Source: Eutreptiella sp. 'Long Island Sound 2002' (Eukaryota > Euglenozoa > Euglenophyceae > Eutreptiales > Eutreptiaceae). Taken from it: DNA of 64,000 bases. Under the pieces are notes generated by a model. That model was not told the DNA's origin. It saw only the letters and a list, made by a program, of their open reading frames with translations, and did not search any database. Numbering within the stretch: the stretch's first letter is position 1; the number at the start of each line of letters is the position of its first letter. The DNA lies in NCBI GenBank assembly GCA_964036045.1, contig OZ038385.1, positions 57,091,919 through 57,155,918 of the forward strand, given 5' to 3'. This document shows positions 13,139 to 58,700 of the stretch, piece by piece. The position numbers and the translations under genes were made by a program.

Positions 13139-13246
13139 TCAAAAAGAGGAATCTAAAACGGGGGGTTGGGGGGGGGCAAAGAATGTCCGCAGGTGCCCGG
13201 AGGTGGGCGCTTGCTGAACCCGCCCCCCACTTGTTGGTGTGCAGGA
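13139..13246 (-). CDS. Giant receptor exon 28: candidate terminal exon with stop
   Basis: After GCGGATGCAG| a phase-0 frame of 35 codons (SCTPTSGGRVQQAPTSGHLR, ending in a Pro-rich run and DSSF) reaches TGA at 13139. It fits exon 27 by phase and gives the gene a stop, but the peptide has no recognisable features, and other terminal exons further left are possible. A minus-strand TGTAA, which could act as an algal-type poly(A) signal, lies near 12620; this is only suggestive. Confidence 0.3.
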   Translation of the reverse strand, partial: SCTPTSGGRVQQAPTSGHLRTFFAPPQPPVLDSSF

Positions 13247-13826
13247 CTGCATCCGCAGGGACCGACGCCACTATTAGAGACCCACAACACCCCGTGTACG
13301 CAGCATACCCGGTTTGTGACCACTGTCAACCGTCAGCCCTCGCTGCGCCACTCTCCCATCAGAAATCACGATTGATCTGTTTATAAACACAGCAAATGGA
13401 CTTGCACAAAGACAATCCCCACCCAAACCCGCGAACGTCAACGGCAAAGCCTATTGCTGGCGTTCAATCCTGGAACAAATCGGGATCGGGGAAATCGGGC
13501 CACGATTCGGGGGGGGGGGGGTTGACCCACTACCGAATGTTGACATCTCAACGCTGCTCCTTCGGCCCGCATGCATTGCCCAATGTATCCACCCAAACGA
13601 TGACCGACAATGACTGGGAATACTGCGGTTGCTGAGGCTGGCCGCAGCTTTGTCCAACGACAGGCAACGTGCTTGGCTGAACCCGACGGGGCACTTGAGA
13701 GGGCACAGAGGGACTGAGCACTGCAGAGGGCACCCCCTGTGCGGTGACCGGGGGTTGTGTGTGGGTGAGTGGGGGGGGGGGGGGCGAAGGCAGCCACACG
13801 CCGAGCCAGACCACGGCATTGCACAC

Positions 13827-14004
13827 CCGCGCATGCGACTCGCCATCGACGGACTTGCGTTTCGTCGTCTGTGTGGCTTGGCGGGCCTGCGTCCGCCGTG
13901 CAATCAACGGGTTTTGCGGGTCGTGCACGCCCGGTCCGCGTGTTGCACTTGGGGACACGATCGAGGCCGACGAGCTCGCGTCCGCAACTTCGGTTCCTCC
14001 GACT
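13827..14004 (-). CDS. Giant receptor exon 27: cytoplasmic tail
   Basis: Residues about 2230-2289, low-complexity and basic (EVADASSSASIVSPSATRGP, then ARRTQARQATQTTKRKSVDG), suggesting an unstructured tail with Ser/Thr-rich phosphorylatable stretches. Acceptor CGTGCCGCAG|A completes the split Arg codon of exon 26, and donor GCGCGG|GTGTGC is phase 0. Other long ORFs here in both strands are GC-rich shadows. Confidence 0.47.
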
Positions 14005-14275
14005 CTGCGGCACGGGCGCGGGGCACAGAACGCATGAGACACGCATCGATGTGGAGGTGCGCACGCCGAGTAGCACCAGCACCGGAGGCGCGGGGCCCAT
14101 GAATTCATCGCCCAAGCGTCGCGGCCCAAGCAAAGCACCCGACCCTATTCCCAGCCCTCCCAAGCCAAGGCGAGAGGGTAGAGGCGATGCCGGCGCACTG
14201 CCGTATGTTCCCTTGACCTCTCGCCTACGTCCTCCCGGAGGAGTATCATGAGCGGTGCCAAAGCCAGACCCAAGG

Positions 14276-14340
14276 CGTCGCTCCCTCCGTCCCTCCGTCC
14301 GGCCGTCCGTCCCTCCCTCCCGTTGCTGCTCGTGTGGAGG
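14276..14340. repeat. (CCGT/CCCT) tetranucleotide-like tract
   Basis: CCTCCGTCCCTCCGTCCGGC-type repetition inside the intron between exons 26 and 27. Confidence 0.7.
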
Positions 14341-14659
14341 GGAGGTTTGGAGAGGGCCTGTGTTGTGGCCAGAGGTAATGGGGGAGGCGGCAACAAGGGG
14401 CACGGGGCACAGATATGCGTGGACAGCGTCTGCAGACTGTTGGGGGGGGTACGGAGGGAGACAGGGGTACGGAGGGAGGGAGGATGAGGTGAGGTGAGAT
14501 GCGGTGCGGTGCGGGGGAGTTGAGGTGGGATTGTGGACATTCCACAGGCCCAGCGCAGCATTATCATCACTACTACCACGAGGGCCGCGGGATTTGGGCC
14601 GTGGATGCCCAGCTGTTGCACTCGGGCCGTGCCAGGCAGTCCGAGGGCTCAAAAACCAG

Positions 14660-14730
14660 TGCCCCCGGGGCTCGAACCGGGTATCCCCAGCCCGGGTGGT
14701 AGGTGCATGACTGCTGTCCTATGCGACCCC
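14660..14730 (-). repeat. tRNA-like (SINE-type) sequence
   Basis: On the minus strand an A-box-like TAGGACAGCAGTCATGCAC precedes a B-box GGTTCGAGCCC at normal tRNA spacing. The acceptor halves are not complementary, so it is not a functional tRNA. It shares GTCATGCAC with the copies at 22.2 and 29.3 kb. Confidence 0.55.
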
Positions 14731-14734
14731 TGTG

Positions 14735-14777
14735 GGAGGGAGGGAGGGAGGGAGGGAGGGAGGGAGGGAGGGAGGGA
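14735..14777. repeat. (GGGA)n microsatellite
   Basis: About ten GGGA units on the plus strand, next to the tRNA-like sequence, in the intron between exons 26 and 27. Confidence 0.95.
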
Positions 14778-14814
14778 AGGGGGCCCACGGGAGGAAGACC
14801 GAGGGACAACGAAC

Positions 14815-15215
14815 CTTCGGGTCGGCAGTGGCTCCAGCTTCACGGACTCCACTTCGTACCGATTCTGGACCTTCCTGCCGAACGACTTCCACCGCATGAC
14901 GGTCGAGAGCCGCCGCGAGTCTCCGCCGCGGATGTCTGCCTTCGCGCGCGCGCGCGCACGCTGCCACCGCACCAGCTCCACCCCCACCATCAGGGCCAAC
15001 AACGCCCCCGCAGCGATAACCGCGTACCAGACCTCGAATGGCAGGTCGTCCTCCGCCGCCGTCGGCGAGAACTGGATTGGGGCGGCGGGGGACGGGGAGG
15101 GGCTGTGCGATTCCGCGGCGGCCGCGGTCCGAATGGTGACCCACCGTTCGGGGGACGGCAGAATGCAGGAGCTTTGGTCCTGCTCCACGGGCTCGTAGGC
15201 GCCCCCGTGCAAACT
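14815..15215 (-). CDS. Giant receptor exon 26: transmembrane helix and start of cytoplasmic tail
   Basis: Residues about 2097-2229. After a Ser/Pro-rich stalk, the acidic EDDLPFEVW leads into YAVIAAGALLALMVGVEL, a single hydrophobic helix, followed at once by RWQRARARAKADIR, the positive-inside stop-transfer sequence of a type I membrane protein. The basic tail continues (STVMRWKSFGRKVQNRYEVE). Acceptor CTTCATTTCAG|AGT is phase 0 and donor CCGAAG|GTTCGT leaves phase 2. Only one membrane span is predicted, unlike polycystins or adhesion GPCRs. Confidence 0.73.
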
Positions 15216-15287
15216 CTGAAATGAAGACGAACCACTGCCGAGGCCCAGCGCAAACCAAATGTGGGGGGGAGGGGGGGAGGGGGGCAC

Positions 15288-15395
15288 CTTTCAGAGACGC
15301 CGCGCGTTCCTCGTGCTGGACCCAAAACACCAAGTCCGACTCTCCAAAGTGTTGTTGCACCAAATCACATACATCTTCAGCGTCTTCCGGCGATG
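15288..15395 (-). other. Protein-like stretch between exons 25 and 26, not placed
   Basis: The minus strand reads DAEDVCDLVQQHFGESDLVF, then WVQHEERAASLK, up to a donor-like AAAG|GTGCCC. It looks coding but its end phase does not fit exon 26 with any acceptor I could find, whereas exon 25 joins exon 26 directly in phase 0. It may be an alternative exon or an old relic. Confidence 0.25.
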
Positions 15396-15916
15396 AGTGC
15401 GCGGGGGGGGGGGGGGGCATTCCGTGTTTTCATGGGTCACTCCGTGTGTTCAACACATATCAGCGAAGATCCGGCCACGCATTGTGCAGGGGCCCATCGA
15501 TCGTCCAGGGCCTCGGCGGCCCTTTCTCAGCCCCCCCCCATCCCCCACCACCCGACCCCCATTCTACCCAGAGCCTCGAGCCCCACCCCCGCCCCCCCCT
15601 GGCCCTATGGTACAGATCCCACATCGGATGTGGCGGAGAGCCTTCATGGCCTGGGGACGACTGCAGGTGAACCGTGTCGGCACTGGCAGGGGGGCGGACG
15701 CCACGAGCTGAGCGTAGATCTTACCGAACACCCCCCAACCCCCCCACACTTGCCTGGGCTTGATCGCATCCCTTCATGACACTGCACACGGGCCGGCCAT
15801 GCGTGCCATACATACCAGCGTCCACGCGGCGCCGCCGGGGGAGGGGGGGGGGTGAGCCATCGAAGCTGAGCAGGTTTGCCAGTGGGTACGTTTGGTTTAA
15901 TGGTGTGTGATTGTGG

Positions 15917-15918
<2 letters not shown>

Positions 15919-15999
<81 letters not shown>

Positions 16000-16021
16000 T
16001 GTATGTGTGTGTGTGTGTGTG
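15919..16021. repeat. (GT)n microsatellite, about 100 bases
   Basis: About 50 GT units with a few GTAT interruptions near 15962, 15992 and 16002. On the gene strand it is (AC)n, and lies in the intron after exon 25. Confidence 0.97.
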
Positions 16022-16152
16022 GTTGTGGGGATCGAGAAGCCCCGCCCCGCACCCCCTCCAGCGCGGTGAGCCTCAACACCGGCCAACCAACCCCCAACCC
16101 TCCGCCCCCGCGGGCGGCACCGTGAGGCTGCCCCAGAGGCAGCAGAGCGCAC

Positions 16153-16349
16153 CTTGGCCACACACTGCCCCTCGCCGGCGTGCACGGAGTGCAGCATGTG
16201 GGTGTAGTTGGACATCACATTCGGGAGCTGGTCGCAGTCGATGTCCACGTCCAAGAGCATCACGAGTTGGGACCCCGTCAGCAGCGACCGGCCCCCCCGG
16301 TCCGGGTTGCAGTACGTACTGAACTCCGCCGTGCCGGCCACGAGGGACC
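16153..16349 (-). CDS. Giant receptor exon 25: membrane-proximal ectodomain
   Basis: Residues about 2031-2096. FSTYCNPDRGGRSLLTGSQL, then VMLLDVDIDCDQLPNVMSNY and a final GQCVAK. Three cysteines and one Asn-Tyr-Thr sequon. Acceptor GCCCGCCCAG|GG and donor GCCAAG|GTGCGC (phase 0). The position would suit the GPS-bearing half of a GAIN domain, but the motif is absent. The following intron holds no clear further exon. Confidence 0.62.
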
Positions 16350-17865
16350 CTGGGCGGGCACATGCGGTGCGAACGCCGGGCGGAGGTCATGCCGTTGAGG
16401 GCGTGCGGGGCCGCCGCAAGTCCAAAGGGCTAAACAGATCGCGACCATCACCTCTAGTGCCCCCTCCCCCTCCCCCGCAGATACTCCTGCACCAAATCAG
16501 GTCCGGGCACATGGCCACCCCAGGGCCATTTGAGCCCCAGGACGGGCATGTCACCGCGGACCCCGTCATGACCCTTAATTGCAAAACCAATTCATGGTAA
16601 TCTGCGAGGAAATCGAACATAGGGTACACATGGAACAAAAATCAAACCCTCTGATACGCGCTGACGGCGCAGAGAAAAGGTTTTCGGCGGATTTGGGGCG
16701 GAGGGGGGATTGGGGGGAAGGGGTCCAGGGGGAGCCCCCCCCGCTGCCGGGATGAACAATTACAGCAACACGCTGCCCCCTCCCCCCCAGCCCCACCTAC
16801 CCACCCACCCACCCACATGCACACACATACACATGCACATGTTCGGGCATGTCACTGCAGGGCCTCATTCTGACCCAATACCACCTTTTCATACATTTGT
16901 CACCAAAGCCAATTCCACACACGTTGGTTCCCGGTTAAAACAGAAACATTGTTGCGCACGGCGACGCCGTTGCCAAAAGTCGAAGGGACAGGTTTTTGGG
17001 AGCACCTCCTTCAGCACCACTGACCGCTACCCTAAGCGGGGGACTGTGTGAAGTGCTGTATCGCTTCGCACTTCGTGATGGGTCGCTAAGCCATAAACCG
17101 TGTGTCAGGGGCCCATCCTTGTGCAGACCTGTTTGTTTTCATGGCATCGGTCAGTCGAGGGCGGCCCTGGGCATCCCTTTCCCCTCCGCCTGCTGGTGGA
17201 GCCGTAGCTCCTGGAGGGCCCACGCAGTGACGCTCTGGGGACTTGAGGAGCGTGTCGCATGCGCACACGTCGGCAACACCCTCATCACCTCGTCCAAAAT
17301 TTGGTTGATGAGTTCGGCCCCCCATTTGTGTGGGCCCAGTGATCTAGACATGAGCGTGGCGCAGGGACAGGGTGGCTACGGCTGCCACCCATTGTTCCAG
17401 CACCACGGGCTCCCAGATCTCCTGGTGGACTGGTGCCGCGACTGGGCCGCCACGGGCGCCCAACCACGCGGCATAGTGCGGTCTGGCAGGCCACCACCTG
17501 TGGGACTGTGCGGGTCTCGAGTCCTTGTCTCGAGTCGGTCCTGGTGGATGGTCTGGCGGTCCCCAAGCGGATCCCCAGGCCCCTGAGGCAGCCACTGTGC
17601 GTTCGCACCGCCGGCCAGAACTCCCCCACGCTTGCACTCGTCTATCGCGAAGATGGGCAGCGGTGGCGCAATGGCATCACAAGCCCCGAGAGGCAATCGC
17701 AGCACAGCAAGACGGTGCTCGACGGGTGGTGAGTGCCGCTAGCAGGTCTCAATGGTACTGCAGTGCCTCTCCACCCGGTGCTCTGTTCTGTGGGCTCTGC
17801 GGGATACCGCAGCGTGTGACCCCTGTGTGATTGGGCTGAGGCTCCCTCCTCCCTGTACCACATCG

Positions 17866-18060
17866 TGCATTGGACACAATCCACTGCACCTTACACCTGG
17901 TGTATGCGGTGCATTGGATACAATCGACTACATCTAGTGTCACGTACTATTTTGGATACAATCCATTGCAAAGTCAGTACTATGGATAAAGTCCACTACA
18001 TCTCCTCTCATGCGGTGCATTGACTTCACTGCATGTGGTGCCATCTAATGCATTAGACTT
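17866..18060. repeat. Four short near-palindromic repeats
   Basis: TGCATTGGACACAATCCACT, CATTGGATACAATCGACTAC, TTTTGGATACAATCCATTGC and TATGGATAAAGTCCACTACA each fold with a TGGAT/ATCCA-type stem. They are spaced 30-45 bases apart. No gene is visible around them. Confidence 0.65.
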
Positions 18061-19007: not shown

Positions 19008-19050
19008 GCCTCCTCCTACGGTGTACGGCCATTCTAGTACTTCCCTGAGG
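19008..19050. repeat. Short dispersed repeat copy 1 (matches 21.33-21.38 kb)
   Basis: CTCCTCCTACGGTGTACGGC continues as CATTCTAGTACTTCCCTGA, nearly identical to the copy in the next intron upstream, in the same orientation. On the gene strand it lies about 80-120 bases after the donor of exon 24. Confidence 0.8.
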
Positions 19051-19127: not shown

Positions 19128-19391
19128 CTGAAGCGGTGGGAATGGCGGACTCAAACAGGTTCACTCGGACATTGCTCAGGTCCACGGAGCCCGCGGCGCC
19201 GACCAGGCGCTCCTGCATCGCCAGGCAGCCCTGGAACGTCGAGGACAGGGCGCAGGGGAACGGGGTGCTTCGCGTGGCGCAGGCGCTCTGCACCGCGAGC
19301 GACCGCGTGGAGGACATCTGACACATGCGCTTGCCCAAGAGGCTGCCGACCCATCGGAACGACGTTGACTCGTGCAGTCGCGCGGAGGGCC
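19128..19391 (-). CDS. Giant receptor exon 24: GAIN-like region with five cysteines
   Basis: Residues about 1943-2030. STSFRWVGSLLGKRMCQMSS, then AVQSACATRSTPFPCALSST and FQGCLAMQERLVGAAGSVDL, closing with a strand-like DLSNVRVNLFES. The acceptor TTCCACTGCAG|GG was chosen over a nearer CAG (19343) because only it matches phase. Donor GCTTCAG|GTGTGC leaves phase 1. No GPS cleavage motif (HL-T) is visible. Confidence 0.62.
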
Positions 19392-21425: not shown

Positions 21426-21617
21426 CTGATGACGGGGGAGCTCTCGCCGTGGCCAACAGTTGTAGCGTCGTGATGGACATCTGCAGGTCGTCCAGGGCCG
21501 GATCGGAGAGCGGGTCCGTGAAGGGGCCGGACATGGTGCTGTCCACTATCGCAATGGCCGTGGCCACGGAGGCGGCGCTGGTCGCGTTGCCCGCGAACGC
21601 CAGCACTTTGGCCAGAC
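21426..21617 (-). CDS. Giant receptor exon 23: helical, GAIN-A-like stalk
   Basis: Residues about 1879-1942. LAKVLAFAGNATSAASVATA, then DPALDDLQMSITTLQLLATA is strongly helical and Ala/Leu-rich, similar in character to helical GAIN subdomain A. Acceptor GCCGTTGGTCAG|GT and donor TCATCAG|GTCTGC give a phase 1-1 exon. The intron that follows begins with a block shared with the intron after exon 24 (about 21.33-21.38 kb). Confidence 0.62.
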
Positions 21618-22275: not shown

Positions 22276-23210
22276 TTCTACCACCACCTGAGGGCACGGG
22301 GTTCAGCTGTCACGGCACAGGGCACGTGACCCGTGGGTCCTGATCTTGTGTCCGGGGGGGGCATATATAATACCGCTTGGCCGTCTTGAGTGGGTGTCCT
22401 CGGCAGTCCCCGCGGCGGGAAGGGACTCGTACATTCGGTTTGCTGGTGCTGGTGCCCAGAGATCGCCCGGGGAGTGCACCTCTCCTCGATCCCCCCGCCC
22501 GGGTCCACAGCCCAGCCTCCCAATCACCCACACCCGCATCCATTTCCTGACCGGACGGGGGCGCCCAGGACAACCGGCTGTACAGCGACGTGCCCCCAGA
22601 AGCATCTCGGCAACCTCCGGGGGCTGCACTGAGGTTCGCATTAGCCTGCAGTCGCCCGGGTCTTCTGCGACTGGTGTTGCTCGCTGCCCGCCCTTTTGGC
22701 CATTGATCCATCGAACATGGGGACCACCGATATGTTTCACGCTCTTTATCATCCCCATCTCCGTGCCCGAAGGCACCCGGGCTCCTACGCCCACACTGAT
22801 ACTCGTGGTTTCTGGGACCAGCGACTCTACTGTGGGTTGGCCGCGCATACGGACGGACTGAAGTGGTGCACTGGAAGGGCCACGGCTGGGGGTTGTCGGG
22901 CAATTCCGAACTGTTGGGTTTAGGAAAAGAGTGGCTGAATACGTCGTTACTCCGCACTTCCGCTTGGTTGTTGGCCCCCCGTGACCGGCTGAACAATGGC
23001 CGGGCACAGCAGTCCACCAAAAGGGGTCCGTCCACCGTGTGGCACCGGTGAAAACTCGATCCCCAGCGCTCCGCAACTGCCGGCCCGCCACCCACACTCC
23101 CACACTCAACACTCAACACTCAACACCCCCCAGTGCACCCAATACCGCGCTTGTATCCCCCCCCCCCCGCCGCCGCCCTTTTGCGCTCTGGAGGGGCCGG
23201 GTTGGTGGTA

Positions 23211-24403: not shown

Positions 24404-24681
24404 CTCAGCATACGCGGCCACCTCCTCGGCGCTGAGCGCGGAGGCCGCGCGGAACCTCTCGGCCTCCGCCAGCAGCGCCGCGCCGGTCGCGGGGACTATG
24501 AGCACCGGCGGGGCCGCGTCGACCCCGACGGTCCATACGGTCGACCCCCCCCAGGCATCGTAGAGGGTGACGATCACGGTGGCGTTGGTGGCCACGGACA
24601 CAAACGGGGCCGTGAAGCTGAGGGTAAGGCCACTGGAGATGCCCCGTAACAGCCCGGCAAACTGGACAACGACTTTGGTGA
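24404..24681 (-). CDS. Giant receptor exon 21: REJ/PKD-like strands, then helical stalk start
   Basis: Residues about 1763-1855. The first part (LTLSFTAPFVSVATNATVIV, then TLYDAWGGSTVWTVGVDAAP) has the beta-strand, D-A-x-G-G-S turn and closing strand seen in REJ, PKD and related cadherin-like sandwiches. The second part (AALLAEAERFRAASALSAEE) switches to Ala-rich helix, as N-terminal to GAIN domains in polycystin-1-like and adhesion receptors. Acceptor CCTGTTGCAG|TC and donor GCTGAG|GTCTGT. Confidence 0.72.
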
Positions 24682-25904: not shown

Positions 25905-25985
25905 GGTATCAGACCCAGGGTTCGAACCCGCGACTTTGGGTCTGTCGGACAGTTCGGAAGGTCCGGCTTGACTCCCGGCGGCGGT
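25905..25985 (-). repeat. tRNA-like sequence (weak)
   Basis: A perfect GGGTTCGAACCC B-box, with an A-box-like AGTCAAGCCGG about 40 bases upstream on the minus strand. The rest does not fold as a cloverleaf. Confidence 0.4.
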
Positions 25986-26247: not shown

Positions 26248-26402
26248 TTGGGGCGACGTCGGACCCCTGCTGCAGTCCCCCTATGACGGCGGAGAAGGCA
26301 CTGGCGGTCGTGATGGTGGCGGGAATGCTGAGCGTGGCTGTGGAGACGTTGGGCCCGGGGTTGACGACGAAGAGAAAGTTGGAGGCGATCACGGACTGAT
26401 TG
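26248..26402 (-). CDS. Giant receptor exon 20: start of the REJ/PKD-like region
   Basis: Residues about 1711-1762. SVIASNFLFVVNPGPNVSTA, then IPATITTASAFSAVI and a Gly-Gly turn. The acceptor TTACTGTCCCCGCAG|C is the best in the gene and the donor CCCCAA|GTACGT is strong. The composition (Ser/Thr/Ala/Val strands, Asn-Val-Ser sequon) continues smoothly into exon 21. Confidence 0.63.
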
Positions 26403-28434: not shown

Positions 28435-28618
28435 CTGGGCGTCGGGCACCGTCTGAAATGCCGCTCGAACTTGTGCGGTCCGTTGCGCATCATAAACGAG
28501 GCTGCCCGACGTTCTGATGTAAGCCTCGGCCCGATAATGCAGATACACAGTAAAGGCTGAAGTTGACTGGAGCAAGGCCCTGAAGAATCGCGTTTGGGTC
28601 CAGTCAGTGAGGTTCCAA
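28435..28618 (-). CDS. Giant receptor exon 18: beta-rich module, continued
   Basis: Residues about 1613-1674. WNLTDWTQTRFFRALLQSTS, then FTVYLHYRAEAYIRTSGSLV is clean coding sequence with one N-glycosylation sequon. Acceptor GAAAGCAG|T completes the phase-2 codon of exon 17, and donor GCCCAG|GTCTGT is phase 0. Together with exon 19 it may be one sandwich domain. A PA14-like fold was considered but key motifs are weak. Confidence 0.62.
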
Positions 28619-28854: not shown

Positions 28855-29053
28855 CTTCTTTTGCTGCGGCCAACGGTCTGCTGCATGCCCAAAGTGGAGC
28901 TAAACTGATGCTCCTGCGATTGATCCAGCGGGTAGACCTGCTCCCCGTCGACGGAGACTTGGGTTCGGATTCCGGAAATGGTGGAAGCCGGGAACAGGTA
29001 CGCGGAGAAAGAGCTCGAAACCGATGCAGTACCCCGGGCCACTTGCAGCTGCC
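28855..29053 (-). CDS. Giant receptor exon 17: beta-rich module
   Basis: Residues about 1547-1612. TASVSSSFSAYLFPASTISG and TQVSVDGEQVYPLDQS are typical secreted beta-strand sequence with no cysteine. Acceptor CACACATTAG|GG is less pyrimidine-rich than most but fits phase 1; donor AAAGAAG|GTGTGA leaves phase 2. The following intron is only about 240 nt. Confidence 0.6.
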
Positions 29054-30097: not shown

Positions 30098-30279
30098 CTG
30101 CAACAAATCCTGGCGGGGCTCCGGTCCGGAACCCGACCGTAACTGCCAGCCCCGTGCCAGCGGTAAGCGTCACGGGGTACGTGACGCTGGAGGAGCTGCA
30201 CGTGCCCGACGCCACGGCGTAGAGGCAGGCGGATTGGATCTCGAGGTACGTCGTGGGCTGCACTGCCACACCGTCGACG
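30098..30279 (-). CDS. Giant receptor exon 16: beta-sandwich-like extracellular module
   Basis: Residues about 1486-1546. VAVQPTTYLEIQSACLYAVA, then SVTYPVTLTAGTGLAVTVGF shows regular alternating strands with two cysteines, as in Ig-like or PKD/IPT-type sandwiches, but no family is certain. Acceptor CTGCTCGCGCAG|C completes the phase-2 codon of exon 15, and donor GTTGCAG|GTGCTG leaves phase 1. Confidence 0.65.
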
Positions 30280-31500: not shown

Positions 31501-31963
31501 TAGCGGGCATAGAACACGGGATGTGGGTTGTAGAGGGTTGTGGCGGGATGTGGTTGAGGAAAATGGCAGAAAAATAGGAGAAAGATGGGACAATAAACCC
31601 ATTTTTCACAGTCCCATTTCCTCTATTTTCCCGTAGATGGAAGATCTTCCCCACAGTTCCCTTTGTAAAACCAAGTCACCGCACTCACCGACGGAAAAAT
31701 GGGAATTTTTGCCACTCACCGATACTCACCGCCAGTGTGCATGGCAAACGCGCTCGTTGATGACAAAAACAAACAAAGTGATTAGCTGCCGCTCCCATGT
31801 CCGATGGCGCATCTTTGTTTCCACACATCCACTCAGGCGGCCCCAGGAGGCAGCACCCCTGGGTGGAGGAGCCTTAGAACTTGGTTGGTTGGCTGAGGGG
31901 TTTGGCGGCCCTCACCCTGCGTCTCCCTCCCTGGTCCCCTCCTCAGGGACCTGGCGCGTATAC

Positions 31964-32483
31964 CTGACTTGGAATTGGCCCGATACGGTCACGTGTGAAA
32001 CAGCGCTGTTACTGGTGGGCGATGCCGTGAGGGCAGATAGACTTAGACTGAGGGACGAGAGAGCACCGACGGGTGGAGGACCAGCGGATGAGGGAGTGGC
32101 GGAGGGCGTGGGGGTGGGGGTTGACGTAGAAGTATGTGTGCGCGTCGCTGTCAACGTGCCTATGGAGCTGACGGTCCGGGTGGGAGTGAAAGTAGGAGTG
32201 CAAGTGAGGCTGGGTGTGGGTGTCGGCCTGGGTGTGGGGGTGGAGGTTGGCGTTGTGGTAGGCGTCGGTGTAGGTGTCGATGTGGATGTAGATGTTGGTG
32301 TGGGCCGGGGAGTGAAGCCAGGGGTCCATGTAGCGTCGGGTGTGCCTGTATGTGTGATTGTGGGGGTGCGAGTAGGCGAAAAGGTGGACGTGGGCACAGG
32401 TGTGGACGTTGACGTGCGGGTCGGTGTGTGTGTAGGTGAAGTCGTGGGTGTGACTGAGGGTAACGAGGTCAGTATGGCCGTGG
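31964..32483 (-). CDS. Giant receptor exon 15: second part of the Thr-Pro linker
   Basis: About 170 residues of Thr/Pro/Ser repeats end in ordinary sequence (SALTASPTSNSAVSHVTVSG, then QFQV). The donor CAAGTCAG|GTATAC leaves phase 2, which exon 16 completes exactly. Two acceptors, CTCCCACTTTGCAG at 32484 and GTTACCCTCAG at 32454, are equivalent in phase. The repeat frame here differs from exon 14, which is why an intron of 100-150 bases inside the array is proposed rather than continuous coding. Confidence 0.5.
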
Positions 32484-33480
32484 CTGCAAAGTGGGAGTAG
32501 GTGTGGATGTCGTGGAGGTCGTTGGAGTGAATGTCGGCGTCAAAGTGGGTGTGGGTCTGGGTGTGGCTGTGGCTGTGGGTATTGATGTTTTCGGAGCTGT
32601 TGGTGTACATGTTGGCGTGAGTGAAGGTGTGGTGGTCGGCGTGAATGTCGGCGTCGCTGATGGAGAAAAGGTGGGTATAGCTGTGCAGGCGACGGTACAT
32701 GTAAATGTGGGTGTTGATGTCGGAGTTGTTGTAGCTGAGAGTGAGGGTGAGGGTGTGGGTGTGAATGAAATCGTGGGCGAGTGTGTAGCTGTAGGTGTTG
32801 GCGAAAGCGTGGGCACAGATGTACATGGTGCAGTGTGTGACGAAGTAAATGTTGGCGAAGATGTGGCCGTTGATGAGACAGTAGAGGGCGGTGTGGCTGT
32901 AATTTGTGCAGATGTGAATGTGACTGTTGGCGAGGGAGTGGATGTAGGCGTAGGTGTTGCTGTCGAAGAGGATGTGGGATTTGGTGTGCATGGGATGGTC
33001 GTTGTGGGTGAAGATGTAGCCCTTGGGGTCGGTGTGGGTATCATTGTTTTGGGGTCGGTGCGTGATGCTGTCGGCGAAGATGTGAGCGACGCTGTAGTTG
33101 TGGATGTCTGTGTATTTGTAGGCGTGGGTGTGGGCGTGGGTGTCAGCGTACATGAAGGCGTGCAACTTGGGGTGGCTGTTGATGTAGCGCTGGGTAACAA
33201 TGTCTTGGGGTTTGTGGAGGTTGTCGTCGATGTGGGCGTAAGAGTATCTGTGGGTGTGCCGGTGGATGAGGGCGTGGATGTAAGGCTTCGTGTGCCTGTG
33301 GCCGTCAGCGTGGGTGTAGAGGTGCATGTGGGTGAGTTGGTCGGCGTTGCTGTGGGCGTGACTGAGCGCGTCCGCGTGCATGTCTGTGTTGCTGTGGGGA
33401 GGACGGTGGGTGTGCATGTGGGTGTGGGCGTTGGACTGTGTGTCGATCCGAAAGTGCCACGGAGCAGCACATTGTCATGT
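32030..33480. repeat. Degenerate hexanucleotide array (GTNGGN)n, exonic on the minus strand
   Basis: About 240 units, mostly GTGGGT, GTCGGC, GTTGGT or GTAGGC variants. The minus strand encodes the Thr-Pro linker of exons 14 and 15. Because units are six bases and avoid stop codons, both strands stay open for hundreds of codons; the plus-strand Val-Gly ORFs are shadows. Confidence 0.9.
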
Positions 33481-33574
33481 TGGCAGCAATCGACAGGTTT
33501 TGCGGTGAGTACCGGGGCGGTACCGCCCTGCCACACCTGACATGTCCCATACTGAGGAACGTAGTCTGTGTAAC
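32609..33574 (-). CDS. Giant receptor exon 14: Cys module end, then long Thr-Pro linker
   Basis: The exon begins YTDYVPQYGTCQVWQGG and includes DCCQHDN, finishing the Cys-rich module, then becomes almost purely Thr/Pro/Ser for about 270 residues (TPTPT-type repeats). The DNA is a degenerate hexanucleotide array, (ACNCCN)n on this strand. A rigid, probably O-glycosylated stalk is the likely role. The acceptor TTCTTCTGCAG|GT matches exon 13 in phase, and this is the TP-reading frame. The frame hits TGA at about 32.47 kb, so a splice or frameshift must precede it. The GTACAC donor used here is a guess that fits phase. Confidence 0.5.
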
Positions 33575-34936: not shown

Positions 34937-35104
34937 CTCCAAAGCAGTTGATGAGCATATCATCGATGTATGAGAATGAATCCACACAAATCGCGCATTC
35001 GGGGCTCAGCAGGGAGAAGCTTTGGTATTGGCAGGCGTCGTCGGTGGCCGCGCAGCTCATGCCATTCCTCAGGTAGGTCCAATCAGCGGACGAGCAGTTC
35101 GAAG
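34937..35104 (-). CDS. Giant receptor exon 13: compact cysteine-rich module
   Basis: Residues about 935-990 hold six cysteines (NCSSADW, MSCAATDDACQYQ, ECAICVD, NCFG), a likely disulphide-bonded extracellular module of no recognised family. The acceptor TTGCTCTGTAG|CT and donor TTTGGAG|GTGCCG make a phase 1-1 exon. Exon 14 adds three more cysteines directly after, so the module probably continues across the junction. Confidence 0.6.
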
Positions 35105-36180: not shown

Positions 36181-37364
36181 CCTGAGCCAAGGGACTGCGC
36201 CGCAGTATATCGCCCACTGCCTGGCCCGAAATGCGACGGGTTTGTTATGCAGTTCTGCGGCGGTGGCTGAGACGGTCGGACGGACGGTCAGACAGGGTAG
36301 ACGAAGGGACGGGCAGAATGGCAGCCAGACAGCCAAACAGCCACGCCAACGGACGGCTGGACAATTGCAGACACGTCTGCCAGGCACTGCGTGCAGGGGC
36401 CCAGACGGGGGAACACCAGCCCCACGCAATGTGAACTGTTGCTGTGCAGGACACAACGATAGTACTGCAGTATTGCAGTGTAATCGGAGCAATTGGGCCC
36501 TGAGCGGAAGATGAATCACGGCGTGAGGGCGCAGGCTTTGTTGTGGAACACGAGGAGTGGAGCGGCGGGGGGTGAGTAGCGGCGAAACTGCGTAACGGGG
36601 CCTCGGCGTGTGGGTGCATGGGCATGGCGGACAGGGGTGCCACTCGCAATGCACATGGCTGACCATACTGTCAGACCATTTCCGCTGGAGCCCCGCAGCC
36701 TCCCTCCCCGTCACGATCCTACGCCCTACCAGAGTTGCAGAGGGGGAGGGGCCACTATGCACGATGACGCTCAATCCTGATTGGGAGATGACACTGCCTG
36801 TTGCCTCTAATCAACCAGAACAACCAGAAGGATTGCCACACTGCGGCCGGCCTTCCAAGTAATGGCCAGCTGTTGCAGGTAAGAGATCAACCGTCTCTTG
36901 ACAGGGGCCTCGGACCCCATACCACAGAGGACGTCCAAAGATAAGCTTAAGTTGCGGCGGCCATGATGCAAGAACGCTGTCCGTGTGCAAATCGCTGCCC
37001 CGCTCTGTGCACTGCTTCACGTGTTCGGGCTACTGACGGTTCCCAATAGTGACCGAGTGGTGTTGTGGGGCGGAAGAAGCAGGGTACGCTCCCTTCCCCC
37101 ACGCGCCTGAGGGAAGGGGTCTCCAAGCCCCTTCGGCGTGAACACTTCCCTCCGCCCCTACCACGTGTGCCCGCCCCCAACGGCCCACCAACCGCTTTGT
37201 CACCACCACCAGAACACGCCATCTAACCCCTCTTTGCAACCGGCAGAAACCGCTTTGGCAGCACATTTGGTGGCCACTCACACTCAGCCCCAGTACGTGA
37301 GTCCCTGAGGCTGCCTGAGGCATCCTGAAGACGAGTTCGGGGGGCGGGATGGTCGGGGTAACAC

Positions 37365-39891: not shown

Positions 39892-40211
39892 CTGCACTTC
39901 CACGGCGAACGTCCCCATATCTGCCCCGTACATGTGGTACCAGAAGCTGACCCCCACGTAGTCACTGGCGGCGGACGTCAAGTGAGCAGTCTTGTGGGGG
40001 CGGTTTGCAGCGAACACCGCGAACCCGACGCGCGTGTAGCCTCCCGCGAAGATGTACGCATACGAGCGGCCACTGGGGCCGGCAGCGGGCCCCGTCCCGT
40101 TGATGTGCGAGCCATTGCCCCGCGACCACCGGAAATCGCCCCCAGACGTCACCCAGAGGCCGTTGCAGAAGACGGTAGTGCCACTGGGGAAGTCGCAGTA
40201 ATGCGAGTTGT
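39892..40211 (-). CDS. Giant receptor exon 10: MAM domain, N-terminal part
   Basis: Residues about 734-840. YCDFPSGTTVFCNGLW, then DFRWSRGNGSHINGTGP and VGVSFWYHMYGADMGTFAVE match the MAM domain closely (CDFExxxCxW ... FxWxRxxGxTPSxxTGP ... LSFWYHMYGxxxGTLxV). MAM domains mediate homophilic adhesion and receptor clustering at cell surfaces. The acceptor CTTTGCACAG|AC and donor GTGCAG|GTCTGG give phase 0 at the 3' side, a split inside the domain. This is the clearest domain in the window. Confidence 0.87.
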
Positions 40212-42060: not shown

Positions 42061-42339
42061 GCAGGCGTTTGAACACTACGCCGCCCAGATACGTCACATT
42101 CTGCGAACAGGCCCAGACTCCGGAGCAATTGGCGATGCCCAACGGATCTTGGCCGTCGAACTCAATACCCACACAACCCGTTGTGACGAGGCACCGTGTC
42201 TTGCAGTCCTCCAGCGCCAGGGCGCCCCAGTAGTCACCTCCGAATATGGGACGTTCTTGGGATCCGCCGTACAGCGCCGCCAGGGACGCCTCCGCAGCGG
42301 AGGCCCTGCACTGCGTTAAAGGGGCCAAATCCCAGCCGT
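42061..42339 (-). CDS. Giant receptor exon 9: PAN/Apple-like domain
   Basis: Residues about 641-733. The exon opens with GWDLAPLTQCRASAAEAS and carries DCKTRCLVTTGCVGIEFDG, then NCSGVWAC and a final GGVVFKR strand, a full PAN/Apple pattern with six cysteines. Acceptor CTGTCTCCAG|AC was chosen because it completes the phase-1 codon of exon 8; nearer AGs (42.31 kb) do not. Donor CTGC|GTATGC leaves phase 1. Together with exons 7 and 8 it forms a run of symmetric phase 1-1 modules. Confidence 0.7.
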
Positions 42340-43657: not shown

Positions 43658-43894
43658 TCCATTTGCTACAGAAGACGTAACTCCCATTTGGGGCCTGTGT
43701 TGGGGCAAACGCCGTGTTGAGGTTGCATTGGAGCGTATTGGGGTCGCACTCGAATGACAAGCAGGTCGCCCGGAGGTCGCACTGCAGCCCACATTGCCTG
43801 CAAGTCTGCACGGATTGGCCACCGCCAGCCCCATCGACGATGCCATCCCCCGGGATGTCTCCGGGCTGGTAAACGTGGCCGGCTCCACAGGTAT
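43658..43894 (-). CDS. Giant receptor exon 8: PAN/Apple-like cysteine-rich domain
   Basis: Residues about 562-640 contain eight cysteines, with TCRQCGLQCDLRATCLSFEC at the core and a closing VFCSKW. The arrangement of a helix carrying two Cys, then C-xx-FE and a terminal FC, is PAN/Apple-like. The acceptor TTTGTCAG|AT and the strong donor TGGA|GTATGT make a phase 1-1 exon, the kind easily shuffled as a whole domain. Confidence 0.7.
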
Positions 43895-46410: not shown

Positions 46411-46659
46411 CCGCGGCATCTGCATATTCCGCATAAAGGTTCCGGATGTAGATGGGATCGGTGCTGGGGGCCCAGCCAATGGAAAGGATGCTGTTGGCAT
46501 GCAGTAGGCTGCTGAACATCTCCAGGCCATCCAACTGAGCACTGAGCAGGGGGCCGACCCTCCGCACCGTTAGCGTCTGCTGTAGGCCGGGCTGCAGCCG
46601 CGCGGAAGCGAGAGGGAACGATTGCGGTGGTGGAGTGACTGAGATGACTCCAGATCCAA
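46411..46659 (-). CDS. Giant receptor exon 7: second half of the possible LamG/concanavalin-like module
   Basis: Residues about 479-561. The pattern LTVRRVGPLLSAQLDG, then ILSIGW, then YIRNLYAEY resembles the end of LamG/concanavalin-like domains (VxRxGxxLxxxLDG ... LxIG ... IDNLxxxY). No cysteine is present. Acceptor CCCCTGTGCAG|TT and donor GCCGCGG|GTGTGA give a symmetric phase 1-1 exon. A copy of a dispersed G/C-tract repeat sits just downstream in the following intron (46.22-46.35 kb). Family assignment is tentative, but the coding call is good. Confidence 0.65.
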
Positions 46660-47756: not shown

Positions 47757-48101
47757 CAAACAGTTGCAGGGCAGTTGTGGATGGGGGTAGGGCGGAACAG
47801 ACAGCGCTCCACAGGGAAGTCCCAGCGATGGCAGAGGGCGTGGAACAACTCTGGTTCAGATTGATAGCGAAGAGCTCGTCGCTTTGGAGGTAGAACATAA
47901 GGTCGTTGCTGGACCCCGTGGTAGTAAAGACGGTTTGGATGAAGAACTCCTGCGACCCCGCGGGGAAGGACGTGTGGATAACGTTGCTTGGCCCGGAGCA
48001 ATTGTAGGCTTGCAAAGTGGCGGTGTAGCCAGCGCAGGTCCCGTCACCTCCGTTGATGGTGGCCGTCTGGGGAACCCCATCAACGATCCCGTGCACTGAG
48101 C
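47757..48101 (-). CDS. Giant receptor exon 6: beta-rich extracellular module, first half of a possible LamG/concanavalin fold
   Basis: Residues about 364-478. Four cysteines, several Asn-X-Ser/Thr sites and alternating hydrophobics (EFFIQTVFTTTGSSNDLMF, ELFAINLNQSC) suggest a secreted beta-sandwich. The acceptor CCCCTCTTGACAG|GC has a good pyrimidine tract, and the donor GTTTG|GTAACA leaves phase 1. The frame remains open past the donor for about 100 nt, so a longer exon is possible. The LamG idea rests mainly on exon 7. Confidence 0.65.
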
Positions 48102-53058: not shown

Positions 53059-53326
53059 CTGCACTGCCAATGAGCTCGACTTGCGACAGAGCGATGAAGT
53101 CCGCGGTGGTGGCCGTCTGAGAGGCACAGAGGCCCAGGCGGTAGAGGGAGTAGGACGCGTTGTTCAGAAACGACAGTTCGGTGCGGCAGCTCCGGCACGC
53201 GAAGGTGACGTTGCCTGCGCTGATGGTGGCCCAGGAGAGGCCATCCGCGGAGCCTTGAAGCTCCCATTGGGCGGGGTCTGCGGCCTGGAAGCAGAGCACC
53301 CGCGAGGTCAGTGTGGCTCCGAGCCA
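53059..53326 (-). CDS. Giant receptor exon 4: F5/8-type-C (discoidin)-like domain, C-terminal half
   Basis: Residues about 254-342. The run QWELQGSADGLSWATI, then VTFACRSC, then YSLYRLGLCASQ and IALSQVEL matches the characteristic C-terminal strands of F5/8C or galactose-binding-like domains (LQGSxDGxxWxxL ... YRYYRL ... LxEIEL). Such domains bind carbohydrate or phospholipid headgroups outside cells. Acceptor TGTTCCCAG|TGG is phase 0 and donor AGTGCAG|GTCATC leaves phase 1. The same frame stays open upstream, with further phase-0 AGs (for example GTGGAACAG near 53.43 kb), so the exon may begin earlier. Confidence 0.7.
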
Positions 53327-53987
53327 CTGGGAACACAGAGACGTTGCGTTCTGAGATGCATCGTTCCCCGACACAGGACCCTCTAGTGCCATGGGGGTAC
53401 TCATGGGGACACCTCTAGCGCTATGGCTACAGGCATCTCCTGCCTGTTCCACGGCGAGAGTCAGTAAAAACTGTCCTTGAATCACCACACAAGCACCGAA
53501 GCAACAGTAACGCCCAAGCACACGGTACAAAGGGGCCAGGCAGGGGCGTGGCGGTTTTGCAACATAAAAGGCGATGCCTCCAGACTCGCTTGGGTTTCCA
53601 TCGCGATAGAAACACCGCCCGTACGCGTTGGTTTTGAAAAAATCACTTTTCTTTAGCATCACTGCACACGCACGTTGCAGATGGAAATCTGCTTTCCACT
53701 CGCACTTCGTTTTCATGTCACCATGGCGTCACCGTCCTAATTCTAAATGCAATCATCACGGCGGAAATGGCTGAATGCAGTCAAATGTCGCGAAAAACAA
53801 AAGTCCTCTCTCTGCAACAGCGATTTTAAATGTTCCACAACATTTTGTTATTTTTGGGTTAAACGCATATAAGACTCAGCATGGACATGCAACACCCCCA
53901 ATACATCCAATACACCCAAAGCAATTCAGAACTGGTGTTCTGGCGAACTCTACTTTTTCTTGTATCTCACCCTCTAATAATGCCTCA

Positions 53988-54200
53988 AACGTACCCGGTC
54001 ACCACGCTGGGGTCATTCACCAAAACCGTGGAATTGGGCTCGAAAAATCGAAGTCTCATCCACAAAACGTTGGGCTGGATCTGAAGCCCGAGGGCTGAGT
54101 TCTGAATTGTGACCCACCTCCCACGTGCTGGAGCGAGTTGCCAGCAACCCCAAACTGTGTCAATGGCGATCCAAGTGTTCTCTCCTCTGCGCACCCGAGA
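53988..54200 (-). other. Possible extra exon between exons 3 and 4
   Basis: The minus strand has a protein-like stretch (GRWVTIQNSALGLQIQPNVL and following) ending at a very good donor sequence, CCGG|GTACGT. Using that donor breaks phase with exon 4. A shorter version (acceptor CAATTCAG, donor TTTTG|GTGAAT) is phase 0 on both sides and would fit between exons 3 and 4 without changing the frame. It could supply the missing N-terminal strands of the discoidin-like domain. A transcript is needed to decide. Confidence 0.3.
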
Positions 54201-54573
54201 CGGCCCTGTTGCTGGTCTGTAGGCGCCAGTGGGAGGGGGAGGGGGGGGGTTGTCAGTGGGTGCTTCGTGGCTCCTCCTGTGTTTGCATGTGCTTGCGTGG
54301 TCACCAAACGACCCAATCCCGCCGGGAGATGTCAAGGGTCTGGGCCCTCCTGATCCTCCTTCGTCAACGCGGACCTGCCTCCCGGATGCAGTCATAGTCA
54401 CGGAACACTCTCGTGCCGCGATGTGCCACGTCTGGAAGTCCGAAGGGGGTGTGTCGCGATCACCTTCTTCGTCGGGGGCACCGTGAGAGTCCAGGACCCC
54501 CTCCCACACACACGTCCACCGGCAATTACCGGCAGAAGAAGGGGCCGAGACAGCACAAGGGGAAGGGGTGCAC

Positions 54574-54776
54574 CTCAAGATACGCGGAGGACGTGATGGC
54601 CAGGGCAGTGACCACCGTGGCCCCGAGCATCGGCTGGACCTCGATCAGCAGCTCGCAGGGGCTGGGGTGCACATACACACCGCCAGACCGCAAGAGCACC
54701 GTCGCATCGGAAGAGGGAGCGCTGGAATTTGTCAAATGTGTGGCCACAATGTAGTCACCCGCTGACACGATGTTGC
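54574..54776 (-). CDS. Giant receptor exon 3: extracellular beta-rich segment
   Basis: Residues about 186-253. The segment is rich in Ser, Thr, Val and Ala, with one Cys and one Asn-Ser-Ser sequon, and ends in the hydrophobic strand-like stretch MLGATVVTALAITSSAYLE. The acceptor CTGTCATCAG|GC completes the phase-1 codon of exon 2, and the donor CTTGAG|GTGCAC closes in phase 0. No family is recognised. It could complete the second Apple-like unit and begin the discoidin-like one that follows. Confidence 0.6.
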
Positions 54777-56268
54777 CTGATGACAGGGGGGCGGTGCAGC
54801 TCACAAAGGGGCCACACGCCCTTGCACACCAGCACTGGCCGTCACCGGCATCTGTTGCCATAGCAATGGTGCCCCCATGAGTACCCCCACGGCACTACAG
54901 GCCCGCCCATTGGTACCCCTCCGTGGCACTGAGGACGCCACCTGGGCTAAAAGTCCGTATTCGACCGGTAAAGCCGCAAACGTATTTCACACGTGATTCT
55001 GAAAAGCGAAACACTCATGAAATGGACACCTCCCGGAAGATCCTTGCTGCCACACAGAGGTGTACGGCAACTCCCCTACGATGAGACGTTCTCTCTTAGG
55101 AGCATTGTAGCTTGCCACCTGTGAATCCGCTCGGGATTTGCAGGCTTTAGGACTGTTTATACTTCAAGTGGGCCTCTGGCAACTCTCGTGCGACTGAAGG
55201 CTGTGGAGGGGGCGGAGATGGGGTCAAATGAGATGTAAAGACATGCGGCGGGGGGGGGGGGGGATACTTTGCAGAACCTCTACGGTTGTTGCCCCATTGC
55301 TTACTATCACAGCGCGCTGGGCACCCATTAGGATTTCGCATGGACTCCAGCATGCCAGCAAAACACAACACAAACACGTGTATTTTGGCACCACCATATT
55401 AAAACCCCCATTCAAGTGTTCATGTGTATTATCTGTTGCATGCTCCGTGTGCGATGGGATTTCTGCAACCCTAAAGGTGTTTGACCGAATGCAAGTTGGG
55501 GGGGGAGGCCGTGCAAGACCTAGCTAGGGCTCTTGCAGCTGGTGAGAGCTTGTACGGAAAATACAAGGGCACACCAGTTGGGGTTTGCAGCTGTTGTGTA
55601 TTGCGAAATGCCGTGTGCACTGAGTCATTCCGTACATTACTTCTCACATCATTTCTTTTGGTCGGTACTGGGAATCATTTGCGCATGAAGCCTCTGACCA
55701 CTCTGCACTAACGCACGCCTGGTGCGGCCGCGTCGCCATGACAAAAGGAGGGGGACGGCTCGTGCGAGGGGCGCTGGGACGGAGTTGCATTTGCAAGAGT
55801 CCCTCTTAAAGACCCCTCAAAAGGAATGCCTTGCTTCTAAAAGCCCTGGCTTAGCCATTCGTTTGGATTCTTGTGACGAAAATTCATTGCCCACAGGCAC
55901 CCCGTGAAATATGAATATGATCACGATGGAGATGATGTTGGGGTAGCAACAGATCGATGCAATTCCTTTCACAATAGGTGTAGCTTGAGGGTGGTGACCT
56001 GTTGCATGACAACCTCACATGAATCACCGGAAAAATTGGTAATATTGTGGTAATGGTAGTGATCTATTGCATGATGCACCCTATGCCCCAGAGAAAGGGT
56101 ACAGGGTTTGGGGGTCATCCTGAACATGAGGCCCAACACTTGGGTGGATAGAATTAACAGAGTTGGGGGTCCAACCCCTCCGCTCCCTGAGGATTTCAAT
56201 GGCATTGGCTGTCTCCTGGGGGGCGACGGCTCCGTAGGCTCCAGAGCAGAGAAGCACGGGAAACACAC

Positions 56269-56608
56269 CTCCTCCTCTCCATTGCACCGCCTGACAGTTC
56301 GCATCACCGAGACACCACAAGCCACACTCCGTTTGTGTGTACTCGTGGCACCACCCGGCACCGGGCCCGGGCGCGACCACTTCATTCCGCTCCGAGCACA
56401 CGCCGCCGGCGCTTCGTTCGAATTCGCTGCTGTTGGCGAACACCACGTCTGTGAGCCACGTGAGCACGCGGCTCCCACGCACATAAACGTAATGGGAGGC
56501 GGTGGGGACCAGTACAATCTCCTCAGTCCAATGGCGGATGTAGCAGTCGGATGCAGCCCAAACAACCCCCAAACAGTTGGGGTCGCTGATGCACCAGTCT
56601 AAGCACTC
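56269..56608 (-). CDS. Giant receptor exon 2: two PAN/Apple-like cysteine clusters
   Basis: Residues about 73-186. The first cluster reads ECLDWCISDPNCLGVVW and then a Cys in DCYIR; the second reads CHEYTQTECGLWCLGDANCQ. This spacing (CxxxC, five or six residues, C, then an aromatic-hydrophobic strand) is the PAN/Apple signature, a disulphide-knotted fold used in extracellular protein or glycan binding. The acceptor is GCTTCTGCACAG|GAG with a good pyrimidine tract, and the donor GAGGAG|GTGTGT leaves phase 1. An upstream AG (about 56.73 kb) would extend the frame but breaks phase with exon 1. Confidence 0.75.
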
Positions 56609-56850
56609 CTGTGCAGAAGCAGGCAGTGGGCTCACACACCTGCTCTCTTCACCTTGGTCACTGGGATTAGCTGGTCTGAGTAACTGTGCTGTGCCTCCTG
56701 ACTGAGCACTGATCCCGACAAACTGGCATTTGGCACCTGCGGGCATGTGCAATTTGTGCTGCATCCGCAGCTACGCCTCCCTGACGACAGCCCCGATCGC
56801 GACGCAACCCAAGAGCCTGTAACCTAGCACTCCGCTGCTGCCGTACCTGC

Positions 56851-56960
56851 ACTCTATGGAGTAGGCGGGATGCCTCACCCTCCCCTGTTTCGCTAATTAG
56901 CCGCATGCTCGATGCCAAAGATGTCGATGTGAGACGGAACCCACTGTATTTCAATACAGG
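56851..56960 (-). other. Possible unplaced exon between exons 1 and 2
   Basis: The minus strand reads GFRLTSTSLASSMRLISETG, then EGEASRLLHRVQ, up to a good donor, GTGCAG|GTACGG. The natural acceptor (GAAATACAG) leaves a one-base start that does not fit the phase-0 end of exon 1, so it was left out of the model. It could be an exon in an alternative transcript. Confidence 0.22.
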
Positions 56961-58484
56961 CTCCCATAGATACCTGTGTGCGACCTCCCCCGACGACGTA
57001 TACCGGGTAGGCCGCCTCCAAACCACCACCCACTCTGTAACCCCCTTCACTCCGAAAACACAACTATGCGTAGGGCGTTACCCTCTGGCTTTTGTCGCAG
57101 TGCATGATGTGCTGCACGTAGCTCCATCCTGTTGTTGGCTTGCTCTTCGTCCTCTGGTAGAACAAAATACCATTTTGCCGACCCCCCTCCCCGCTGCTAC
57201 TGAAATGAGACCTCCTGAAAAACCCCCTTCTCTTCCTCCAATTCCCCGTTCTTGCCCGCCCTCTGCTCCTGTTTCCAACGCGGTACCAAAGACAAGGCGG
57301 TAGCAACAGAAGGGCAACATGCGAAGATGTGTTGGGTTGGGGTGGGACACGGCCACTGCTGGCAGTCAAGGTTCCCACAGTCCTGGCCCATACCTGTGGG
57401 ACACGGCTGGTACCAACGCACCACGCGGTCCGTTGCAACTCCGGCGAGGGTGTCCCTTCCAGACGGTGAAAATGAGAGGGGCGGGGGGTCTGGAAAACAG
57501 GTTCGAAGGGCGAGACCTTATGTTGAAATTGGTTCAGGAGCAGATTGCACGAGAAAAAGATGGCGAAACAGATTTGCCTCGACCACTTTTTTGAGCAACT
57601 TCAGACGTCCCGCGATGGTTTTGGTGGGCCCAGCCTTTGAAACCTGATTTGAGGGGGGAGGCCCAGGGAAACGGGCCCTCACGGGAGTTGCAGTGGACCG
57701 CAGGCCATGTCTGGTCTGAAGGCCGGCAGGACTGTCTACTGCCCCTTATCCCTGCGTACCGCGAGGGAGCGGGAAATACGCCATTTGTGGACCGAGGGCG
57801 GTTGGGAAGGGCACGTCGACGGACGAGGTGGCGCACAACGGTCGGGCACCATCGTGGGCACCGGGTTCCCCAGGGTCTATTGGTGGTGCGCAACGGCAGT
57901 GGTGGTGTATTGGGTGAGGCCCTGTGTAAAATTCATGGTGCTTCGCATAGGCCCCCTTCCGAGGGACGTGGACGGTGCCCTGCTTGCACGAATATCTCCT
58001 CTATCCACTTAAAATCAGCCGCTGCAGCCTTAACAATGCGGTGGCGGAGAAGGGCTCGGTCCAGGAGACCGGTACGGTTGCAGCAGTGCAGAGTAGTGTG
58101 GCTTCGTGGAGTATGCGGTTGGCGCGTGGAGCGGTGCAGCATCCGAGAGTTGTGCAGATGTAGAGCAAAGTTATCAACGCAGTGCAAAAGAACCGAAAGG
58201 AACCAAAACAAAAGGCTCATGACGTTTGTGACAATGGGGCACACAACTGATAGGGCATTCACACAGCCCTGTGTGCATGCAAACCTGTCCGCAGCTATGC
58301 TTTGCAATGCAAAAGAGAAGAATATTCGTTAAACCGACACGCATTTGCGGCTATTTGCTCCTGAAGGTCCTGAAGGTCCTGAAGGTCACACCTTTTCTGC
58401 ACAAAATGTGTAATCAAAACTATCGTTGCATGCAACTTAGGCAGGTTTCAGAAAAGCAAAGGTTGTGGGAGAGGGCAGTCGCAC

Positions 58485-58700
58485 CTGTTGTGTATAGCTG
58501 CGGCACCATGCGGGGGCCGAGAGCACCTCCACTCCGGAGATGAAGCAGCTACCGCTTTGTACAGCGTACATGAATGTATCAACCATCCCTCTCAAGGCCG
58601 CATTCGGCAGCCACTGCTCTGGATGTGGGTACACAGGTACCAGCAACGCGTCAAGAAGCAGAACACCGATGATACACCATGGGATCTTCCATGGGAACAT
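58485..58700 (-). CDS. Giant receptor exon 1: start codon, signal peptide, first PAN-like half
   Basis: This exon holds the proposed start (residues 1-72). The ATG follows an in-frame TAA two codons upstream, so the frame cannot extend further 5' without splicing. Residues 8-25 are strongly hydrophobic (CIIGVLLLDALLVPVYP), after a short basic start, as expected for a secretory signal peptide. The exon ends in frame (phase 0) at CAACAG|GTGCGA. Joining to exon 2 creates QQECLDWC, the usual helix-Cys pattern of PAN/Apple domains, which supports the junction. Three further cysteines lie in the mature part. Confidence 0.62.

Follow-up and report, generated by a model that had tools for sequence, protein, structure and literature searches.

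A minus-strand series of 23 exons that probably encodes one giant mosaic surface receptor

Results

We analysed a window of 64,000 nucleotides, i.e., the whole stretch of contig OZ038385.1 (assembly GCA_964036045.1) between forward-strand positions 57,091,919 and 57,155,918, in which a giant mosaic receptor gene of 28 exons had been predicted from the letters alone; positions below count from the first letter of the window. The DNA looks eukaryotic, with a GC content of 0.49 to 0.65 per 2-kb block and with GT-AG introns interrupting the coding segments. Minus-strand coding exons between 58.7 kb and ~13.8 kb were placed both by a decoder trained on seed exons and by a scan for codon bias, and these two analyses, together with three splice joins that ranked first in independent-of-phase scoring, confirm the minus-strand coding segments with GT-AG borders of the original prediction. 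The coding character of the segments, the three tested splices, the identity of a MAM domain, and the hydrophobic leader and membrane helix are all well supported; that the exons belong to one large gene encoding a type I mosaic adhesion or recognition receptor is, judged from sequence, probable. The placed model holds 23 stop-free exons, instead of 28, and ~1,720 residues, and is listed here in order of transcription (phases are given as start to end).

58485..58700 (-): exon 1, with the ATG, a signal-peptide-like leader and the first half of PAN-1; 72 codons, end phase 0
56269..56608 (-): exon 2, remainder of PAN-1 and most of PAN-2; phase 0 to 1
54574..54851 (-): exon 3, end of PAN-2 and first half of the F5/8C-like module; phase 1 to 0; codon-bias segment 54819-54532 scores 20.8; a rival acceptor at 54776, likewise phase 1, is the decoder's preference
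53059..53284 (-): exon 4, second half of the F5/8C-like module; phase 0 to 1; the match to structure 7nsn spans the join
47757..48101 (-): module C1, part a; phase 1 to 1; codon bias 29.9
46411..46659 (-): module C1, part b; phase 1 to 1; codon bias 15.4
43658..43894 (-): PAN-3 exon; phase 1 to 1; PAN_1 match; rival donor 43654, picked with generic matrices, would give phase 2
42061..42339 (-): PAN-4 exon, tentative; phase 1 to 1; codon bias 19.6; rival donor 42093 would give phase 2
39892..40211 (-): first two thirds of MAM; phase 1 to 0; has the relative P0002
38398..38575 (-): last third of MAM; phase 0 to 1; Pfam match when joined
36375..36499 (-): module C2, part a, probable exon; phase 1 to 0; weakly resembles part of C1 (internal match to 48153-47539, E 0.045)
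34937..35104 (-): module C2, part b, probable exon; phase 1 to 1; codon bias 17.6
30098..30279 (-): exon R1; phase 2 to 1; codon bias 23.5
28855..29053 (-): exon R2; phase 1 to 2; codon bias 16.6
28435..28579 (-): exon R3; phase 2 to 0; codon bias 8.8
26248..26402 (-): exon R4; phase 2 to 1; codon bias 21.6
24404..24681 (-): exon R5, probably the segment first called REJ-like; phase 1 to 0; codon bias 36.4, opposite strand 22.9
22615..22645 (-): possible 31-base exon, sought to fit phase; phase 0 to 1, fitting between 24404 and 21617
21426..21617 (-): exon G1; phase 1 to 1; codon bias 25.8, opposite strand 17.0; the decoder favours acceptor 21754, phase 2
19128..19391 (-): exon G2; phase 1 to 1; codon bias 29.7
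16153..16349 (-): exon G3; phase 1 to 0; codon bias 21.8
14815..15215 (-): membrane-helix exon with the start of a basic cytoplasmic tail; phase 0 to 2; codon bias 31.4
13827..14004 (-): probable exon, further cytoplasmic tail; phase 2 to 0; codon bias 10.0

The terminal exon and stop that had been proposed near 13139 were not among the 12 best candidates listed, the first of which is a 22-base exon with its end at 12638.

The case for the gene is carried by three join tests, not by phase agreement. For each of the three introns that split a recognisable module, the GT-AG joins of that stretch were assembled and then scored by a measure that leaves phase out, and the scored numbers count the unspliced read too. 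With the protein's own uninterrupted PAN-2 repeat, which PAN-1 resembles, as the reference, the PAN-1 join 58485/56608 came first of 1792 scored (1885 built) with 30.4 bits, the next reaching 23.8 and the unspliced read 5.9. The F5/8C-like join 54574/53284 was likewise first, of 1090 scored (1165 built), with 38.5 for the join and -1.5 for the unspliced read; the runner-up at 37.4 has the same acceptor and another donor, so that the donor was chosen by a narrow margin, and as the profile was built from sequences found with the joined query, this is the least independent of the three tests. For MAM, scored against a profile of intron-free, mostly bacterial domains, the join 39892/38575 ranked first of 2505 scored (2556 built) at 84.7 bits, with a runner-up of 79.8 bits at the same acceptor and 47.6 for the unspliced read. 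These mostly bacterial domains are colinear across the splice, and their match to the second MAM exon is independent because the loci were fetched with an open reading frame (ORF P0001) that does not contain that exon. The first MAM exon has a relative on another contig (P0002, an ENA record), which could be orthologous or paralogous. Identities number 74 of 106 positions inside the exon, 5 of 14 upstream and 3 of 27 downstream; the similarity stops at the proposed splice sites, and the first two downstream residues are the translated donor site.

Domain searches bore out some of the predicted modules and dropped others. The two MAM exons, when joined, matched MAM (PF00629) over profile positions 1-150 of 158 with 34.6 bits against a gathering threshold of 26.4 (E 2.1e-8), which supports the predicted MAM domain well. 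For PAN the outcome was divided, in that PAN_1 (PF00024) passes gathering (21.4 bits) on the unspliced exon-2 ORF 56084-56770 (21.9 bits) and on PAN-3 and PAN-4 joined (24.0 bits), while no single module passes. The best stretch of the joined pair lies in PAN-3, and its second PAN_1 stretch was not located within the piece. Taken singly, PAN-1 (joined exons) and PAN-3 stay below gathering at 17.6 and 16.8 bits, PAN-2 alone and PAN-4 alone match nothing in Pfam at E up to 1, and the PAN-4 ORF 42035-42598 matches nothing at E up to 0.1; a separate Pfam scan of PAN-2 returned PAN_2 at 10.6 bits, below cut-off. For the predicted F5/8C domain, Pfam at E up to 10 showed no match to the discoidin family (PF00754), whereas phmmer against solved structures links the joined query to the GH92 mannosidase 7nsn at E 4.7e-8 (two individual stretches, E 0.0015 and 0.13), in stretches that we take to be CBM32/F5-8C modules.

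Farther along the protein, the predicted names REJ, GAIN and LamG were dropped, as they found no Pfam or solved-structure support with the exons placed. Pfam, searched at E up to 10, returned neither REJ (PF02010) with the exons as joined, the exon set being incomplete there, nor GAIN/GPS, nor LamG on module C1, and the C-terminal half gave no match to solved structures at E up to 10. Module C1 had a single solved-structure match (GphF, E 1.2). Weak Pfam matches below cut-off to Big_12 (E 0.03) and DUF5801 (E 0.0086) came from C1 and the exons at 36.5-15.2 kb, for which nothing rose above cut-off in the searches made, not every exon having been sent to every library. Structure prediction without alignment for two single exons was uninformative (mean pLDDT 39.7 and 47.3).

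Type I topology, judged by hydropathy and by reading of the sequence, is indicated by a predicted signal peptide, a single helix and positive charge inside. The predicted start holds: the ATG at 58700 opens a leader whose best 19-residue hydropathy is 2.11, while at the other end a hydrophobic segment in exon 15215-14815 reaches 2.20 and is followed by a basic tail. One further 19-residue window exceeds 1.6, at 1.77 inside the F5/8C-like module, and the six middle exons reach at most 1.39. There are 21 N-glycosylation sequons in 1,723 residues. The type I mosaic surface protein of the original prediction is still the best reading, supported in its leader, single helix and MAM; REJ, GAIN and LamG modules are unsupported.

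Seed exons carry G or C at 78% of third codon positions. With a scan trained on minus-strand seeds, codon bias alone leaves the strand undecided: 53 plus-strand and 49 minus-strand segments score at least 6. Among segments scoring at least 15, there are 19 on the minus strand (3 of low complexity) and 4 on the plus strand, namely 1 of low complexity and 3 opposite minus exons; the membrane exon scores equally on both strands (31.4 each). With the same seeds, the decoder scores 291.5 on the minus and 27.6 on the plus strand, a comparison that favours the minus strand, since the seeds derive from it, and that includes a low-complexity stretch. More generally, this same gene supplied the training data for the splice matrices and codon usage, which are to that extent circular. 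A first self-trained gene finder was abandoned after drifting to 122 exons on one strand and 123 on the other, and later runs were anchored on fixed seed exons.

Within the gene span, 31950-33560 is a degenerate, strongly G-skewed low-complexity stretch, with a GC skew of 0.457 for 32-34 kb. The decoder's top exon (65.4), a THTHTH-rich open minus-strand frame at 33.4-32.0 kb, belongs to this stretch and was excluded from the exon count; the stretch was masked in later gene-finding runs, including the phase-blind ones.

Of 20 stop-free ORFs (13 flanking the gene, 7 inside its extent), none matched a Pfam family at E up to 0.1, and Rfam and ARAGORN searches of the window found nothing. tRNA B-box-like GGTTCGA motifs, which are perhaps SINE remnants, occur at 14678, 22225 and 25928 on the minus and at 25919 and 57500 on the plus strand, with 0 ARAGORN tRNAs. 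Tandem repeats at 5707-5919 and 7234-7511 have units of ~103 and ~109 bases, and GGGGGCCCACA is found in both consensus units. At the window edge, 63756-63998 is an open minus-strand segment with a coding bias of 11.8 (14.4 nearby on the opposite strand) and no Pfam match, perhaps an exon of a neighbouring gene.

Discussion

The exons would most simply be read as a single minus-strand gene whose GT-AG introns are removed to leave one transcript joining them all. Its product would be a type I membrane glycoprotein with a signal peptide, PAN-PAN, an F5/8C-like module, C1, one or two further PAN modules and MAM, followed by more extracellular domains without a recognised family, one membrane helix and a basic tail. 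A length of ~2,300 residues and a single gene continuing across the 35-30 kb gap are plausible.

Phase agreement contributes less to this reading than the 27 of 27 consistent junctions originally claimed. In the placed model 19 of 22 successive junctions are phase-consistent, and several donors as well as the 31-base exon were picked with phase known. A phase-blind decoder reaches 16 of 25 over all exons with trained matrices and 11 of 21 with generic ones; restricted to exons of at least 60 bases, trained matrices give 14 of 21, where shuffled exon order averages 8.3 (p 0.008). Because phase-blind agreement is only partial, complete agreement would by itself be weak evidence.

Several observations weigh against one continuous receptor gene. 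With generic matrices and exons of at least 60 bases, agreement (10 of 19 against 7.1 shuffled, p 0.12) is not significant. Phase is broken in the placed model at 36375 to 35104, 34937 to 30279 and 28435 to 26402, and with these 3 of 22 junctions out of phase, exons or sites must be missing there. The 35104 exon stays open in its frame as far as a stop just beyond 34788, and the first half might terminate at that point. No domain has been recognised in roughly half of the protein. Searching with a rough joined sequence of 1,706 residues gave no homologue in the capped set of 7,989 candidates scored, and a query combining exon 2, R5 and the membrane exon recovered, from a likewise capped set of 7,999, nothing but ORFs of the window itself.

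Some of these points suit two adjacent genes, i.e., a secreted PAN/F5/8C-like/MAM protein (58.7-34.8 kb) and a single-pass membrane protein (~30.3-13 kb), an arrangement that we regard as rather unlikely while giving it real weight. It would account for the lost phase link at 34937 to 30279, for the stop behind the 35104 frame and for a first half that has no likely membrane helix besides its leader, as a secreted protein would, and the G-skewed low-complexity stretch sits in the gap. Against it, there are 0 signal-peptide-like ATG candidates on the minus strand at 34.9-28.6 kb. This favours one gene only weakly, because the counts per 10-kb block of that strand (3, 1, 2, 0, 0, 2), or 8 in 60 kb, predict about one such start there by chance, and an initial exon could also lie elsewhere.

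Two further explanations were weighed. One gene with alternative splicing, in which symmetric phase-1 exons are cassettes that vary the ectodomain, has in its favour that 7 of the 23 placed exons run from phase 1 to phase 1, so that skipping them would keep the reading frame, and that exon 3 has two in-phase acceptors; exon symmetry alone is no proof of skipping, and we consider this improbable. Least likely is that the exons are unrelated and were brought together by mis-assembly, or that they form a decaying pseudogene: the three broken junctions and the terminal exon without a clear candidate would fit it, but the 23 exons are stop-free, most of them have codon bias, and three joins restore whole modules.

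For one continuous receptor gene, the closest known systems offer partial parallels. Neuropilins are single-pass, with the order CUB-F5/8C-MAM, and have in common with this protein an F5/8C-like module, MAM, one helix and a tail without a recognised catalytic domain. Unlike them, it has PAN, a larger ectodomain and further domains next to the membrane; its MAM matches neuropilin-1 weakly (E 0.18), and the pieces sent to Pfam gave no CUB match, which sets it outside the family. By analogy it may at best work like a neuropilin without being a member. In the part of one account that we draw on (PMC6387129), neuropilins are membrane-spanning co-receptors without a cytosolic kinase domain. MAM is also shared with MAM domain-containing GPI-anchor protein 1 (MDGA1; E 0.0041), unlike which this protein, in the pieces submitted to Pfam, matches neither Ig nor FN3.

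MAM-like matches were found at 78 loci of the prokaryotic collection. In bacterial MAM-repeat proteins such as ORF L001:1818-5201 (Flavobacteriales), MAM is colinear over nearly its whole length; that ORF differs in being intron-free and in carrying three MAM copies behind an apparent subtilase, recognised by reading only. A large modular ectodomain is also a feature of sea urchin REJ proteins, among which suREJ1 is single-pass, and of polycystin-1, from all of which this protein differs in having no REJ, GAIN or GPS match. The part consulted of a report on a brown-algal REJ-GPS protein (PMC4700764) gives it 6 or 7 predicted helices, as opposed to the single helix here. The order PAN-PAN-F5/8C-like-C1-PAN-PAN-MAM, followed by unassigned domains and one helix, did not appear among the papers listed by keyword searches of open-licence PMC articles.

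These parallels point to adhesion or co-reception as the function suggested by the architecture. The ectodomain would bind glycans or surface proteins, whether those of another cell or those of the matrix, and adhesion or signalling would proceed in a neuropilin-like way via partners, which we propose because the tail shows no catalytic domain.

Conclusions

The intron borders of the placed model resemble those of metazoan exon shuffling. Acceptors are in phase 1 in 13 of 22 cases, and C1, PAN-3, PAN-4 and MAM are flanked by phase-1 introns, two of the donors having phase-2 rivals. In the sections of a review available to us, modules so flanked are class 1-1, the pattern of metazoan exon shuffling (PMC8001218), and the same sections treat such shuffling as restricted to Metazoa (PMC8001218). 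Discoidin (F5/8C) proteins, for their part, are already known from a green alga, a Micromonas strain, as stated in the portion seen of PMC4815162. We put forward only tentatively, as a doubtful proposition, that class 1-1 module shuffling built a giant surface receptor in a non-animal eukaryote, perhaps a green alga, as might be guessed from the base composition, the codon use and an RRALLQ-type motif.

Metazoan-like phase-1 borders would be unusual if the host is an alga, and if the host is not an animal, phase-1 module shuffling outside Metazoa would become directly testable and the gene would offer a candidate cell-recognition receptor.

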